NCBI RefSeq assembly: GCF_002572525.1
Contig: NZ_PDBS01000008.1
Span: 372,001 to 436,000 of the forward strand
Direction: 5' to 3'
Length of the DNA stretch: 64,000 nt
DNA from: Natrinema sp. CBA1119
Lineage (GTDB): Archaea > Halobacteriota > Halobacteria > Halobacteriales > Natrialbaceae
Shown here: positions 24,008 to 42,584 of the stretch, in pieces
How the letters are laid out: every line of letters begins with the position of its first letter
Position numbering within the stretch: position 1 is the first letter of the stretch
Position numbers and translations under genes: made by a program
Notes under the pieces: generated by a model
Database searches by the model: none
Seen by the model: only the letters and a program-made list of their open reading frames with translations
What the model was told of the DNA's origin: nothing

Positions 24008-25927
24008 TCAGTAGCGGAGCAGTCGCATCCCGTTGAGGATGACGAGGAGGACGCTGGCCTCGTGGACCAGCATTCCCGACGCAAGGGTGACGTAGCTGGT
24101 AAGTACGCCCGCGAGGAGGACGGTCACGGTCAGCACCGCGAGCCCGACGTTCTCGAGGACGTTCCAGCGCGTCGCTTTGCTCAGTGTGACCGCGTACGGG
24201 ATGCGTTCGAGGTCGTCGGCCATCAGTGCCATGTCAGCCGTCTCGATGGCGGTGTCCGTCCCCGCGGCACCCATCGCGATGCCGACGTCGGCGGTCGCCA
24301 GCGATGGCGCGTCGTTGATGCCGTCGCCGACCATCGCGACGACGTGGCCGTCGGACTGGTAGGCCTCGATGACGGACTGCTTGTCCTCGGGGAGAAGTTC
24401 GGCGCGGTACTCGTCGATACCGACCTCCCCGGCAACGGCAGCGGCCGTTCGCTCGTTGTCGCCGGTGAGCATCACCGTCTCGATGCCGGCGTCTTGGAGT
24501 GCCGCGACGACGCCGGGGGCGGACTCCCGGAGTTCGTCCCGCAGCGCGATTGCGCCGATGATGTCCCTATCCCGGATGACGTGGACGACCGTTTCGCCAC
24601 GTTCCTCACGCTCGCGGACGTATTCGGCGACCCGACTGGGGATGTCGATGTCGCGGTCGTCCAGCAGTGCCCGGTTGCCGACGACGACTTCGTGGCCGTC
24701 GGCGTGGGCGATGACGCCCTTGCCGGCGACCACGTCGAAGTCGTCCGGATCGGGGATCGACTGGCGCCCCGCGTCCGTATCGTCCGCCTGGGCGACTGTG
24801 GCCCCACCGTCCGTCGCAGCCGTCGGTTGCTCGCGCGCCGCGTCGACGATGGCGTCGGCGAGGTGGTGTTCGCTCTTCTTCTCGGCGGTCGCCGCGAGCG
24901 AGAGGACCTCGTCATCAGCAACGCCGAATCCCTCGACGTCGGTGACGGTGGTCTCGCCCTTCGTGAGGGTGCCGGTCTTGTCGAAGGCGACGAGGTCGAT
25001 CTTGCCGGCGCGTTCGAGGTGTTCACCGCCCTTCATCAGCACGCCCGACCGGGCGGCGTTCCCGATAGCGGAGACGATGCTGACCGGCGGCCCGATGACC
25101 AGCGCGCCCGGACAGCCGATGACCAACAGCGTCAGCGACAGGATCGCGTTCTGCGTGACTGCATACGCGCCGATAGCCAGGGCAATGACGGCCGGCGTGT
25201 AGTACTTCGCGAACCGGTCGATGAGACTCTCGGTCGGCGACTGGGCCTCCTGGGCTTCCTCGACGCGGCGGATGATATGTTCGAGCGTCGTGTCCGAACC
25301 CGCGCCCGTCGTCCGAATCTCCAGTGCACCTTCTTGGTTGACAGTCCCGGCGTAGACCTCGTCGCCGTCGGCCTTGTGGACGGGCGCGCTCTCGCCGGTG
25401 ACTGGCGCCTGATTGACGGCGCTCTCACCGTCGACGACAGACCCGTCGACCGGAATCTTCCCGCCCGGTTTGACGATAACTATCTCACCCTCCTTGACCT
25501 CGCGGGCGGGCACCTCCTGAAGCTCCCCGTCGCGACGGACAGTCGCGGTGTCGGGCGTCATCTCCAGCAGTTCCTGGAGGGCCGTCCGGGTCTTCCGCAT
25601 CGTCCGCCCCTCGAGGTAGCTGCCGAGGCTGAACAGGAAGACCACTGCCGCGGCCTCCCAGTACTCCCCGATGACGATGGCACCGATAGCGGCCAGCGTC
25701 ACCAACGTCTTGATACCGAGCGTCCGGTTGGTGACCTCGTAGTAGGCGGTCTTGGCGATGTCGTAGCCGCCGACGACCGTCGCTAGGATGAGGACCGCGG
25801 CGCTTGCCGTGTCGAAACTCGTGAGATAGCCCAGGCTCCAGCCGCCCCCGTAGAGGAGGCCGCTCGTTGCCGTGACGATGGCCTTCCGGTGTTTCCGGTA
25901 GTACTGCGTGATCGATTGTTTGTTCAT
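24008..25927 (-). CDS. Heavy-metal-translocating P1B-type ATPase with CPG motif
   Basis: The start at ATG 25927 (MNKQSITQYY) gives 639 residues; the longer frame upstream overlaps the HMA gene and is not used. Motifs are NQAPVTGESAPVHKADGDE (actuator TGES), [12 protein letters not shown] (phosphorylated Asp), the HP-type segment SEHHLADAIV, MLTGDNERTAAA and VGDGINDAPSLATADVGIAM. The metal-binding membrane helix reads VIGCPGALV: CPG rather than the usual CPC or SPC. The last helix has VHEASVLLVILNGMRLL, similar to the HEGG(S/T) signature of P1B-4 pumps. Zinc, cadmium, cobalt or iron are all possible substrates. There is no fused HMA domain; one is encoded separately four bases upstream. Confidence 0.88.
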   Translation of the reverse strand: MNKQSITQYYRKHRKAIVTATSGLLYGGGWSLGYLTSFDTASAAVLILATVVGGYDIAKTAYYEVTNRTLGIKTLVTLAAIGAIVIGEYWEAAAVVFLFSLGSYLEGRTMRKTRTALQELLEMTPDTATVRRDGELQEVPAREVKEGEIVIVKPGGKIPVDGSVVDGESAVNQAPVTGESAPVHKADGDEVYAGTVNQEGALEIRTTGAGSDTTLEHIIRRVEEAQEAQSPTESLIDRFAKYYTPAVIALAIGAYAVTQNAILSLTLLVIGCPGALVIGPPVSIVSAIGNAARSGVLMKGGEHLERAGKIDLVAFDKTGTLTKGETTVTDVEGFGVADDEVLSLAATAEKKSEHHLADAIVDAAREQPTAATDGGATVAQADDTDAGRQSIPDPDDFDVVAGKGVIAHADGHEVVVGNRALLDDRDIDIPSRVAEYVREREERGETVVHVIRDRDIIGAIALRDELRESAPGVVAALQDAGIETVMLTGDNERTAAAVAGEVGIDEYRAELLPEDKQSVIEAYQSDGHVVAMVGDGINDAPSLATADVGIAMGAAGTDTAIETADMALMADDLERIPYAVTLSKATRWNVLENVGLAVLTVTVLLAGVLTSYVTLASGMLVHEASVLLVILNGMRLLRY

Positions 25928-29144: not shown

Positions 29145-29524
29145 TTACTGCGACTCCGTGTCGCGTTCAAGCGCCTCTCGTCGTTGTTCGTATTCGTCGT
29201 CGGTCAATTCGCCACGAGCGTACGCGAGTCGGAGTTCTTCGAGTGCCTGGTCCGAGTTGCTCTCATTCCCCGCTATTGCCTGGTAGATGAGGTAGCCACC
29301 ACCGATGATGGCTGCCAAGAACAGGATCTGCATCACGATTCCAGTGATAACCATCCAGGTTGGTATCGTCCCGTCGCCCCACAGATGGCCGCCCCACGTG
29401 ACACCCATCATCGGGCCAACTCCATCATCCCGAAGCCCATAAAGAACATCGGGAAGAGGACGAACGCACCGATGATAATGAGGACAGTCGTAATGCGTCG
29501 TGTATCATCTGTTTTGTCAGGCAT
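29145..29524 (-). pseudogene. SHOCT-domain membrane protein, one-base frameshift
   Basis: ATG 29524 starts MPDKTDDTRRITTVLIIIGA with membrane segment FVLFPMFFMGFGMMEL, which ends at TGA 29408. The next frame, from ATG 29411, has MMGVTWGGHLWGDG, a second membrane segment and the SHOCT helix pair EELRLAYARGELTDDEYEQR. Compared with the intact paralogue at 38897, adding one G to GAGTTGGCCC gives MMELGPMMGV and a single 126-codon gene. Two separately translated pieces with overlapping ATGATG remain possible. SHOCT is a short C-terminal oligomerisation domain. Confidence 0.65.
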
Positions 29525-38023: not shown

Positions 38024-38370
38024 ATGACACACTACACCAACACCCTCGGACGAACGGCTCGTCGAATTGCGGTGCTCACCATTCCGCTGCTGGTTGCTGT
38101 AACAGGTACCGCTGCTGCTCACGGTGGTGGAGGCTACGACGGCGGGATGATGGGCGGTAGCGGTTGGGGGCTCTTCGGTGGTGGAATGGGCCTTTGGGGG
38201 CTCCTTTGGATGGGGCTCTTAATTGCCGTGCCGCTCTACCTCGGCTACTCGCTTCTCAACAGCGATTCTGGGGGGACGATAGCCGGCCGCTTTCGGTTTT
38301 CCGTGAGCGCTATGCCCGCGGTGAACTCTCCGATGAGGAGTTCGAACGACGACGAAAACAGCTTGAATAG
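38024..38370 (+). pseudogene. SHOCT-domain membrane protein, frameshift at a G6 run
   Basis: The first frame starts MTHYTNTLGRTARRIAVLTI with a signal-like segment, a Gly/Met-rich stretch (GGGGYDGGMMGGSGWG) and a membrane segment GLLWMGLLIAVPLYLGYSL. The SHOCT part is in another frame: DDSRPLSVFRERYARGELSD and EEFERRRKQLE, stop 38368. The frames meet at GGGGGG (38270-38275); seven Gs would join them into a 115-residue protein. It is thus either a recent inactivation or a homopolymer error in the assembly. Confidence 0.7.
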
Positions 38371-38474
38371 ACCAAATGAAAGGAATAGAAGGAGTATCGT
38401 TCAAAACTACTCCCGTCCGACGGCTGTCGCGGTGGGACCAAACTATTAACTCCGTTACCGGAGTATGGGTTTTC

Positions 38475-38891
38475 ATGGAATACACAATACAGATCACAAC
38501 TGCTGGTGAGTTCGACGATGTCGTCGACGCAACGAACGCTGCACTCAAAGATGAGGGATTCGGGGTCCTCTGTGACATTGACATTCAGGCGACACTCGAG
38601 GAGAAACTCGGCGAAGAGTTCCGACAGTATCGGATCCTCGGTGCGTGCAATCCACCGGTGGCATACGAAGGATTGAGTGCAGAAATCGAACTCGGCGCGC
38701 TTTTGCCCTGCAACGTCATCGTCTACGAGAATGATGACGGCGACATCGTGGTGAGTGCAGTCGACCCCGAACAGCTGGTCGGAATCGCTGACAACGACGC
38801 ACTTGACTCCATCGCAACTGAGGTCAACGAACGATTTGACCGTGTACTGGCAGCCGTTACAGATGAATTCGGATCCGCGTCGGAGGCCTGA
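38475..38891 (+). CDS. DUF302 family protein
   Basis: I chose ATG 38475 (MEYTIQITTAGEFDDVVDAT; 138 residues). DUF302 motifs are DEGFGVLCDIDIQATLEEKL, YRILGACNPPVAYEGLS and ALLPCNVIVYEND. It is close to the copy at 12458. In this island it sits between two SHOCT-type membrane proteins, with 5 bases to the next gene, so it belongs to the same operon. The location in a metal cluster supports a metal- or redox-related role for DUF302. Confidence 0.88.
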   Translation: MEYTIQITTAGEFDDVVDATNAALKDEGFGVLCDIDIQATLEEKLGEEFRQYRILGACNPPVAYEGLSAEIELGALLPCNVIVYENDDGDIVVSAVDPEQLVGIADNDALDSIATEVNERFDRVLAAVTDEFGSASEA

Positions 38892-38896
38892 TTCCG

Positions 38897-39244
38897 ATGG
38901 CTTCATCAGATCAACTGGACACGACGACGATACTGCTCCTCGTGCTCGGTGCGTTCATCCTCATTCCTATGCTCATGATGGGGTTCGGTGGGATGATGGA
39001 ATACGGGGGCATGATGGGCCAGTACGGTAGTACAGGTGGCTGGTGGCCCTTCATCGGAATGGTCGTACCGCTCGCCTTCCTCCTTGTGCTTCTGGGCGGA
39101 GGTTATCTCATTATCCGTCGAGTGCCCGACACACAATCGTCTCACAATCCTGCGATTGAAGAGATGCGTCTGGCGTACGCTCGTGGAGATCTCACCGACG
39201 AAGAGTTCGAAGCCCGACGTGAGAAACTCGAACAATCAGAGTAA
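38897..39244 (+). CDS. SHOCT-domain membrane protein (intact)
   Basis: This 115-residue protein has two membrane segments (TTILLLVLGAFILIPMLMMG and WPFIGMVVPLAFLLVLLGGG). They are separated by a Met/Gly-rich loop GGMMEYGGMMGQYGSTGGWW. A C-terminal SHOCT helix pair follows, EEMRLAYARGDLTDEEFEAR. It starts 5 bases after the DUF302 gene. It is the reference for repairing the two broken copies. The SHOCT tail probably mediates oligomerisation; the Met-rich loop suggests metal contact. Confidence 0.82.
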   Translation: MASSDQLDTTTILLLVLGAFILIPMLMMGFGGMMEYGGMMGQYGSTGGWWPFIGMVVPLAFLLVLLGGGYLIIRRVPDTQSSHNPAIEEMRLAYARGDLTDEEFEARREKLEQSE

Positions 39245-39478: not shown

Positions 39479-40235
39479 ATGACACCTTACAGTCGACGAC
39501 AATTCCTCGGTTTTGTTGGTGCCGGTGCAGTGGCCAGTACGAGCTTGGCTCAATCCGCGAATGCAAAGGAGATACCTGTCGTAGAGATGGGGAACAATTA
39601 CTTCGATCCAATCGGTCTGCGAGTCGATCTCGGGACAACCGTTCGGTTTGAACTTGCAGCCGGGACACATTCCGCCACGGCGTACCCGGATCGCGTTCCG
39701 GACGGTGCTTCCGCCTTCGATAGCGGCACGATCTCGCAGGGGCGTTTCGAACACACGTTCGACACGCCAGGGACGTACGATTACTACTGTATCCCCCCAC
39801 AAGTCGATTGGGATGGTCGGACGGATCGTTGTTGGGAGTCCTAGCGGGCCGGCGGAGGAGAGCTCGATCCCGAATGGTGAGGTCCCAGCGAGTGAGGCTA
39901 TCGTCGAGCAGGGCGTAATTGCCTACGGTTCGAACAGTGATGGGAGCGGAAATACTGGAGGCGGAATGATGGGGTCAGGCGGCCACGGGATGATGAACGG
40001 CCGCAATGGAGGTGGAATGGGGGGACTCCCAGTTGTTGGTGGGGTGCTTGGAAGTTCGGGCATTCTCGGTGGCGCCCTTTACTGGCTCGGAAATCGAACG
40101 TCTCCTCGTTCGAGTACTGATCACTCAGCCAGAGAAGTGCTTCAAGAGCGCTATGCTAGAGGTGAGATTGATGAGGAAGAATATAGACGCCGTCGTGAGC
40201 GACTGGACGCATCCGATGAGGACGTCTCCAATTAA
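39479..40235 (+). pseudogene. Tat-exported halocyanin-SHOCT fusion, frameshift at a C6 run
   Basis: The start MTPYSRRQFLGFVGAGAVAS has a twin-arginine signal. The blue-copper domain follows: GTHSATAYPDRVPDGASAFD (first His ligand) and TPGTYDYYCIP (Cys ligand). The frame is lost at CCCCCC (39793-39798). With five Cs it continues HKSIGMVGRIVVGSPSGPA, giving the second His and the Met ligand. A Gly/Met/Asn-rich linker (GGGMMGSGGHGMMNGRNGGG), a membrane segment and a SHOCT pair (EVLQERYARGEIDEEEYRRR) follow, to 40235. The repaired protein has about 251 residues. A halocyanin with a SHOCT tail is not an arrangement I know. Confidence 0.75.
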
Positions 40236-40372: not shown

Positions 40373-41125
40373 TCATTTCCCCTGTGTGGCTCGGTAGTAC
40401 ACGCCGATTGTGAGCACAGCTACGAGGAGGAGATATCCAGTAGCCCACACTAACGAGAGAGCCGTATCTACGTCCGTCGTGAGTCCGGTATCGACCATCA
40501 CACGGACAGGCCAATAGCCGGGGAGTAGTTTCATCCACCATTCGGGCTCGGACTGGATGAACAGCGGATCCTGGAAGAGTCCGATATCGAGCATCGGGAG
40601 AATCAGCATTAGCCACATCCCGGCTAGGCGGTCGAAAACGGCCCCCACGAGCATCCCAATAAGACCATACGTGACCGAGACAACGAGCATCGCTGCGACG
40701 AACCACCAGAGATGCTCAGGCTGGAAATCGACGAGCATCACAGCGACTGAGACGCCGGTGACGATGAGAGTGATTGCTGCGAGGACCCCAAACCGGGCAG
40801 TGATTACCTGTCGTGCACGATAGCCGGCGACTGCCAGACGACCGTCTGTGTCTTTGGCTTCTCGCATCAGGAACAACCCAGCGAGTCCCGCGATGAGGGC
40901 GCTCGTAATCGGCGTCATGATCACTCCGTGGACCTCAGGCATCCCTCGCATGACCGTCACCGTCTCACCGTCGACGAGCGTCCGAACCGGCATCTTGACA
41001 TCCTGAGTGACTGCGAACGCCAACGTGATGAACGAGACCGGTAAGACGACCAGTAGAGCGACGAGGACGTAGTTTCGTGCCTGTTCTTTGATACCGATTG
41101 AGAACGCCGTTGTCGTACGGTTCAT
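40373..41125 (-). CDS. ABC-2 type permease
   Basis: The start MNRTTTAFSIGIKEQARNYV (41125) overlaps the stop of the previous permease gene by four bases. The product is 250 residues with six membrane segments (for example YVLVALLVVLPVSFITLAFA and LIAGLAGLFLMREAKDTDGR). The long extracytoplasmic loop between segments 1 and 2 is typical of ABC-2 exporters. It is the second membrane subunit of the exporter encoded with 41122-41860 and the ATPase at 41853-42584. The substrate is unknown; the surrounding genes suggest metal stress. Confidence 0.8.
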   Translation of the reverse strand: MNRTTTAFSIGIKEQARNYVLVALLVVLPVSFITLAFAVTQDVKMPVRTLVDGETVTVMRGMPEVHGVIMTPITSALIAGLAGLFLMREAKDTDGRLAVAGYRARQVITARFGVLAAITLIVTGVSVAVMLVDFQPEHLWWFVAAMLVVSVTYGLIGMLVGAVFDRLAGMWLMLILPMLDIGLFQDPLFIQSEPEWWMKLLPGYWPVRVMVDTGLTTDVDTALSLVWATGYLLLVAVLTIGVYYRATQGK

Positions 41126-41860
41126 GCGGACCACCCACCACTGGTGCGCATCGTCATTCCGAACACTGCGGTGACGAGCACGAGCAAGACTAGCAGGTAT
41201 CCGGCAACGAAGCCGAGATCACCCGTTGTATATGTACCTTGGAACATCGCCTCCTGAAGGAGTTCCTTCGGATGATAGAGCGGGAAGTACTCCACGAACT
41301 CGGGAACGTCGGCGGCCAGTGGGCTGTCGCCACTGAGGAACGCGTCCATCATCGCGAGGAACACCACGACGAGCGAGCCTTCGAACAGTCGCGGAAGGAG
41401 CGCCCCGACGAGTGCGCCGAGGAACGCATAGACCAGGCCAGCGAGTACGAGGAATACGAACGTCAGAACAGGGGCTTCCGGTGAAATCGTCAGCCAGAGA
41501 ACGCCGTAGTTTACGGCAGCCACGACAACGGTCACACCTCCGAGTGTCGCTAATCGAGTCGCAAGCAGTGTTCGGGGTGGATAGCCTGTCTGAACGAGTC
41601 GCCGATCGGCTGCACGCGCACTAATCATCTGGGCGAGTCCCATCAGGCCGGCGATGATGGCGACTCCGAATATCGCTCCGAGGAGGCGACCAAGATTGAT
41701 CGGAATCGCCTCGACCGTCGGCATGGTCGGCAGTCCTGCCATCGCTTGTCCCCAGCCTTCGATAACGACAACCGGAAGGAGGAGTGCCAGGACAACATTC
41801 AGGGGGGGGTCTGAGGAAGGTGGAAACATTCGCCTGGATCCCCGTCCAAACCCTATTCAT
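41122..41860 (-). pseudogene. ABC-2 type permease, frameshift at a C8 run
   Basis: The true start is MNRVWTGIQANVSTFLR at 41860, overlapping the ATPase stop (GATGAATAG). After 16 codons a run of eight Cs (plus-strand G, 41802-41809) shifts the frame. The remainder, PLNVVLALLLPVVVIEGWGQ and on, is intact to 41122. Seven Cs would give a 245-residue protein with six membrane segments. The frame can also be entered by an internal ATG at 41829 (MFPPSSDPP), but that start is not typical. It is either a pseudogene or a homopolymer sequencing error. Confidence 0.75.
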
Positions 41861-42584
41861 CAGTCTCTTCCCCCCGTTCACTGGCCGTTGCATCAGTCTC
41901 GCCTTCCTGGTCAGTCACGTCGTAGACTTGTCCATCACGAACCTCGTAGATGCGGTCGAGACGATTTTGCTCCTCGATCAGGTGTGAAATCATCGTGACA
42001 GCTGTTCCGTCGGCAGCGAGTTCCTCGGCGAGATCCCAGAACGTGAGATACGTCTCCCAGTCGAATCCGGTGTAGGGCTCGTCCAGCATGAGGACGTCCG
42101 GGTCGTGCATCAGGGCGATACTGAGATTGATTTTTTGACGGTTCCCGCCGCTGAGTTGGTCGATTCGATACTCAAGGTACTGTTCGAAGTCGAGTTTCGT
42201 TGCGAGTCGGTGTTTTGCCTCGTCAACCTCCTCGAGGGTCATCCCGTATCCGGCCCCGAACAGTCGGAACGTCTCTGCGACAGTCAAGCGGTCGTAGAGC
42301 AGCGGTTCCTGTGGACACCAACCAACTGTCCCCGCTCGTTGAACCGTTCCTGCATCCTGATCGAGTACGCCGACGAGGATATTCATGAGTGTGGATTTGC
42401 CAGACCCATTTTCGCCGACGATGCCGACGATCTCTCCCGCTTGAATGGCGATGTTAGCACCGGATAGGACGGGAACTGACCGTGTAAATGGGAATCTCGA
42501 TCCATACGTTTTCTCTATTTCTTCGGCGCGGACGAGTTCCCCATTGGTACTTAATGTCACGTCAACGTCTGTCGATGTCTCCAT
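41853..42584 (-). CDS. ABC transporter ATP-binding protein
   Basis: In this 243-residue protein the Walker A motif is GIVGENGSGKSTLMNILVG, the Q-loop GWCPQEPLLYDRLTV, the signature LSGGNRQKINLSIALMHDP, Walker B VLMLDEPYTGFDWE and the H-loop TMISHLIEE. It is the energising subunit of an ABC-2 exporter with the two downstream permeases; all three genes overlap and form one operon. A motif shared with the DoxX operon (TTAGAAATCCAAAGTC on the plus strand, 42623-42638) lies 39 bases before its start. Confidence 0.9.
   Translation of the reverse strand: METSTDVDVTLSTNGELVRAEEIEKTYGSRFPFTRSVPVLSGANIAIQAGEIVGIVGENGSGKSTLMNILVGVLDQDAGTVQRAGTVGWCPQEPLLYDRLTVAETFRLFGAGYGMTLEEVDEAKHRLATKLDFEQYLEYRIDQLSGGNRQKINLSIALMHDPDVLMLDEPYTGFDWETYLTFWDLAEELAADGTAVTMISHLIEEQNRLDRIYEVRDGQVYDVTDQEGETDATASERGEETDE

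Follow-up and report, generated by a model that had tools for sequence, protein, structure and literature searches.

Pseudoazurin, plastocyanin and halocyanin, all blue-copper proteins of the Pfam family PF00127, share a common fold and the ligand pattern His...Cys-x2-His-x4-Met, and are either soluble or anchored by various means. CopI of Rubrivivax gelatinosus is a copper-induced periplasmic plastocyanin-like protein whose gene clusters with copA and whose loss leads to copper sensitivity (PMC7558416). In Haloferax alexandrinus, silver induces two genes of the plastocyanin/azurin family, possible homologues of the family described below, along with a SHOCT membrane gene, copA and copZ (PMC10694973).

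The locus described here encodes a protein with the same fold and ligand pattern, to which a Met-rich linker, a C-terminal helix and a SHOCT tail are added. Within the 64-kb stretch of Natrinema sp. CBA1119 that was analysed as a whole (hereafter the window), the fusion gene lies at 39479-40235 on the plus strand, as two overlapping frames split by one surplus C. The first open reading frame runs from the ATG at 39479 to a stop at 39842-39844 (121 aa) and carries the twin-arginine start MTPYSRRQFLG, His64 (39668-39670) and Cys104 (39788-39790). The second frame, one on from the first, stays open to 40235 and carries His107, Met112, the GGGMM linker, the hydrophobic helix and SHOCT. The frameshift strips His107, Met112, anchor and tail from the first frame and, as sequenced, the whole protein cannot be made. 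The initial annotation held that correcting one C would restore a single protein, and the orthologues agree. Intact, single-frame orthologues of 80-85% identity (L089/L013, L099 and L090) align end to end with both window frames, and every orthologue aligned at the DNA level has one base fewer at the C6 run of 39793-39798, which marks the frameshift point. A Pfam search likewise finds Copper-bind (PF00127) and SHOCT (PF09851) both above cut-off in the orthologue L089, and one in each half of the window copy. Two separate genes are ruled out, since the orthologues are single frames.

Read in frame, the protein starts with a Tat signal and a pseudoazurin-like blue-copper domain; a linker rich in Gly, Met and Asn connects these to a single membrane helix, and a SHOCT tail closes the chain. 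Apart from the likeness to pseudoazurin, the initial annotation had anticipated each of these parts. The Tat-type signal (39479-39574, SRRQFLG...) has a probable cleavage site near A-x-A/KE and carries no lipobox. A twin-arginine motif of the form S/T-R-R-x-F-L-x is present near the N-terminus, with R6, R7 and L10 invariant and F9 nearly so among 31 distinct intact fused proteins; by profile the signal is borderline (TAT_signal_seq TIGR01409, 16.6 bits vs a cut-off of 16.7 in one orthologue). The first part of the blue-copper domain (39575-39844; Pfam Copper-bind 23.7 bits, cut-off 21.2) holds His64 and Cys104, and the remainder, in the next frame (39795-39920), holds His107 (39798-39800), Met112 (39813-39815) and a conserved GPAEE..IP.GEVP.SEAI segment. 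Next comes the linker NTGGGMMGSGGHGMMNGRNGGG (39921-40019), whose length differs among orthologues and whose Met and Gly content is kept. A single hydrophobic segment, predicted to form a membrane helix, follows at 40026-40091 and leads into a charged tail. The SHOCT domain itself (40128-40205, again on the plus strand) scores 36.2 bits in the own-genome search and 33.6 bits in the Pfam search against a cut-off of 27; the match is short and C-terminal, reaches 29.9 bits in L089, and covers a motif that is in large part invariant or nearly so in the same 31 proteins.

Structural prediction for L089 gives a cupredoxin with pLDDT of about 95-98 (residues about 30-150) and two SHOCT helices at about 92 (AlphaFold2), with the linker below 50 and the membrane helix placed without confidence. 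The Kyte-Doolittle 19-residue peak in L089 is 1.64, for segments starting at residues 178-180, and ranges from 1.4 to 2.6 across all fused proteins. A Tat signal combined with a C-terminal helix and charged tail is most simply explained by a copper domain at the cell surface and a tail inside, as first suggested.

The class of the copper domain requires a more cautious label than the one originally given. All four ligands (H64, C104, H107 and M112) are invariant in 39 aligned proteins; the invariance holds for the 31 intact fused proteins and extends to ten unfused relatives. PF00127 reaches 45 bits in L089 (cut-off 21.2). The blue-copper assignment stands, but the name halocyanin is loose: TIGR03102 gives 51.5 and 47.5 bits, below its curated cut-off of 93.8, which rules out a halocyanin in the strict sense. 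The best PDB matches of the modelled domain are pseudoazurins (E 6.9e-10, and about 1e-17 by sequence profile), though the pseudoazurin model TIGR02375, at 50.1 bits, also stays below its curated cut-off of 109.85. The CopI copper-resistance cupredoxin model NF051440 yields 17.3 bits, far under its curated cut-off of 280, and the cut-off of the specific plastocyanin model is likewise not reached. It is safest to call it a 'blue-copper protein, pseudoazurin-like'.

Unfused haloarchaeal relatives, found in Haladaptatus (L049, L051-L053) and in the same genome as the window (L083, contig C2), are 42-51% identical to the fusion, keep all four ligands and belong to the same cupredoxin subfamily. 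They stop after the copper domain, and an N-terminal lipobox takes the place of the C-terminal helix and tail, so that anchoring seems to rely on an N-terminal lipid in one subfamily and on a C-terminal helix in the other. Two further unfused proteins (L048 and L065) show a C-terminal hydrophobic segment and no evident SHOCT tail, possibly an intermediate architecture.

A scan that covered 84,980 species, each represented by one genome, gave many homologues encoded as one frame. Those of full length belong to Halobacteria, and matches to bacterial relatives are confined to the copper-domain end of the query. Of 391 Halobacteria genomes searched, 100 contain a relative at E<=1e-30, and 69 fused copies were counted; by hand assignment from match tables and retrieved sequences, 57 of these are intact single frames of about 235-261 aa and 12 are broken. 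The fusion is therefore a real haloarchaeal family, not two domains that always lie in separate genes. One intact example, WP_004594613.1 (248 aa), is encoded on plasmid pNG600 of Haloarcula marismortui. Our literature search returned no paper describing a cupredoxin-helix-SHOCT architecture and, for pNG600, nothing about the fusion gene. The architecture is apparently undescribed in the papers searched, and databases already annotate such proteins, WP_004594613.1 included, as 'plastocyanin/azurin family copper-binding protein'. The tree does not resolve whether the fusion arose once or several times. Identical or nearly identical copies are spread over many genera, and in ten species (L003-L012) the fused protein is the same, which suggests that the copper island has recently moved among haloarchaea. 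Elsewhere in Halobacteria, broken copies display frameshifts, N-terminal truncation or stop codons (L037, L043, L044, L047, L123-L124 and L126-L129).

The status of the window copy itself can be read in two ways. Compared with L089, its nearest orthologue, the copper part has a dN/dS of 0.17 and the part beyond the frameshift one of 0.12, close to the values of about 0.10-0.23 for intact pairs where dS could be estimated. Both halves are under purifying selection, and because dN/dS is as low in each as in intact pairs, the lesion must be either recent or an error. Phase variation at the C run is held unlikely, as most orthologues have CCCAC, CCCCCAC or CCGCAC; because they lack a common long C run, there is no conserved switch. 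Programmed frameshifting is rejected on the same ground, the slippery run not being conserved.

A sequencing or assembly error would leave the cellular gene intact, and we consider this an even call. The extra base lies in a run of six C, and a second frameshifted gene of the window, at 38024-38373, lacks one base beside a G6 run at 38270 when compared with its intact Salarchaeum orthologue. Such runs are rare in the intact genes; slippage mutation and sequencing error both fit frameshifts at six-base sites. The low dN/dS of both halves also agrees with an error. A third frameshifted gene (29154-29524, minus strand) argues in the other direction, as its single-base deletion relative to Salarchaeum lies outside any homopolymer; none of the 17 further island genes that have full-length matches carries a frameshift, and truly broken fusion copies exist in other species. 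The alternative is a genuine recent pseudogene, part of a general wear of SHOCT-tailed island genes, to which we would assign a probability just short of even. Frameshifts affect three of the five SHOCT-tailed genes in the window and none of the 17 neighbours, a post hoc comparison (Fisher about 0.007, calculated by hand; the value of 0.005 obtained with 19 neighbours is an overcount). Across Halobacteria, broken copies make up 12 of the 69 fusions while the ABC permeases are intact in 33 of 33 cases, a contrast that is suggestive only, since broken copies of common ancestry do not count as independent cases and the thresholds of the search are biased towards intact neighbours. Against a pseudogene, the window copy shows no decay beyond the one base, and its dN/dS is low.

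The surroundings of the gene point to metal handling. In window order, a permease, a MarR-like regulator, a DUF7546 membrane protein and a secreted Met/His-rich protein precede the frameshifted SHOCT protein of 38024-38373 (plus strand), a secreted Gly/Met-rich membrane protein; a DUF302 protein (38475-38891, plus strand; PF03625, 89.7 bits) and an intact two-helix membrane protein with a Met-rich loop and SHOCT tail (38897-39244, plus strand; 26.6 bits in the Pfam search and 28.6 bits, above cut-off, in the own-genome search) then lead to the fusion. Downstream on the opposite strand lie two ABC permeases and an ABC ATPase (40373-42584, minus strand), convergent with the fusion gene, followed by DoxX and DUF411; the permeases are 95-98% identical to those of other islands. 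Further away, a His-rich ATPase with a CPH motif is encoded at about 47.3-49.35 kb of the window, which we take, by its motif among P1B ATPases, to be of the CopB type. A second heavy-metal ATPase and an HMA protein occupy 24.0-26.1 kb; this P-type ATPase (24011-25927) has CPG where CPC or CPH is usual, and the HMA-domain protein adjoins it as a separate gene. Comparable gene orders are found on plasmids of Salarchaeum, Haloarcula and Halorarius. In two of these three plasmid islands a thioredoxin-family gene, absent from the window, stands immediately before the fusion, between it and the SHOCT gene (L120, 12540-12848; L121, 10249-10590). DUF302 lies within 5 kb of 54 of the 69 fused copies.

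In line with this island context, with its CopB-like ATPase, second ATPase and HMA protein, DUF302, DUF411, MarR and ABC transporter, we favour a role in copper handling. The family would consist of extracytoplasmic, membrane-anchored blue-copper proteins of copper-handling islands, most likely acting as a copper or silver buffer or shuttle, a proposal we put forward with moderate confidence. The Tat system would export the folded pseudoazurin-like domain, as the conserved motif and predicted fold suggest, and the C-terminal helix would then keep the cupredoxin on the outer side, with the SHOCT tail reaching into the cytoplasm. His64, Cys104, His107 and Met112, whose ligand pattern is observed, would hold copper, and the domain together with the Met-rich linker would most likely act on the outer face, close to the P-type ATPases of the island, by buffering or shuttling copper or silver. 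A similar role has been proposed for CopI; the fusion is not a member of the CopI family, and no anchor or SHOCT domain is mentioned for CopI (PMC7558416). Three points weigh against a buffer or shuttle. The membrane helix shows no more than moderate hydrophobicity and is modelled without confidence, and 15 of the 69 fused copies lie outside any DUF302-linked island, one of them adjoining apparently unrelated genes. Furthermore, electron carriage is commoner among blue-copper proteins than copper storage.

It is accordingly worth asking whether the protein is mainly an electron carrier, that is, a membrane-tethered pseudoazurin or halocyanin that feeds an oxidase, reductase or multicopper oxidase and uses copper as a cofactor only. 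Pseudoazurins, the closest solved relatives, are known electron carriers, and related islands contain DoxX-like and FAD oxidoreductase genes and, in one case, a multicopper oxidase. The conserved neighbours are, however, metal transport and stress genes (DUF302, ATPases, DUF411 and the ABC transporter) rather than respiratory complexes, and electron transfer has no need for a Met-rich linker, so that we regard this function as unlikely.

The SHOCT tail raises further questions. Five of the eight above-cut-off SHOCT matches of the genome, as found by the own-genome search, fall in the 64-kb window (binomial p about 2e-8). The other SHOCT-tailed small membrane proteins of the island combine a Met/Gly-rich segment, a helix and a SHOCT tail as the fusion does, and differ from it in having no cupredoxin domain; the tail of the fusion is 50-55% identical to those of two of these proteins. 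The initial annotation proposed that this tail would link copper binding with oligomerisation in a novel manner, an idea for which we find no support. In the founding SHOCT paper, a representative domain placed in an artificial fusion gave no multimerisation by size-exclusion chromatography (PMC3581485), and the sequence of the fusion reveals no oligomer formation; as that test covered one domain only, the idea is unsupported rather than excluded. Oligomerisation would be one form of a broader scheme of transmembrane copper sensing or scaffolding, in which copper binding outside alters the SHOCT tail inside and thereby recruits an ATPase, chaperone or regulator. The clustering of SHOCT tails fits this scheme insofar as several island membrane proteins share a tail and may share a partner. 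Apart from the negative multimerisation test, a linker that is variable in length and modelled with low confidence seems ill suited to conformational signalling, and we find the scheme very doubtful. Docking or placement of the protein at the membrane, and nothing more, is the most likely task of the tail in the buffer or shuttle that we prefer. We also speculate, as a long shot, that the Met/Gly-rich segment, helix and SHOCT domain form a movable anchor module common to island proteins, whose tails might dock on a single partner in the cytoplasm and thereby collect copper binders of the outer face, among them the cupredoxin fusion, around the copper pumps.

Altogether, the fusion is a modest variant of a known protein type, but it is real and conserved. 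The database record of the window copy is frameshifted, which calls for caution on the part of its users. The family documents a conserved haloarchaeal architecture that would place a cupredoxin outside the cell and a SHOCT domain inside, and it connects copper islands with SHOCT, a domain whose function is unknown, thereby offering a concrete setting for studying what that domain does.
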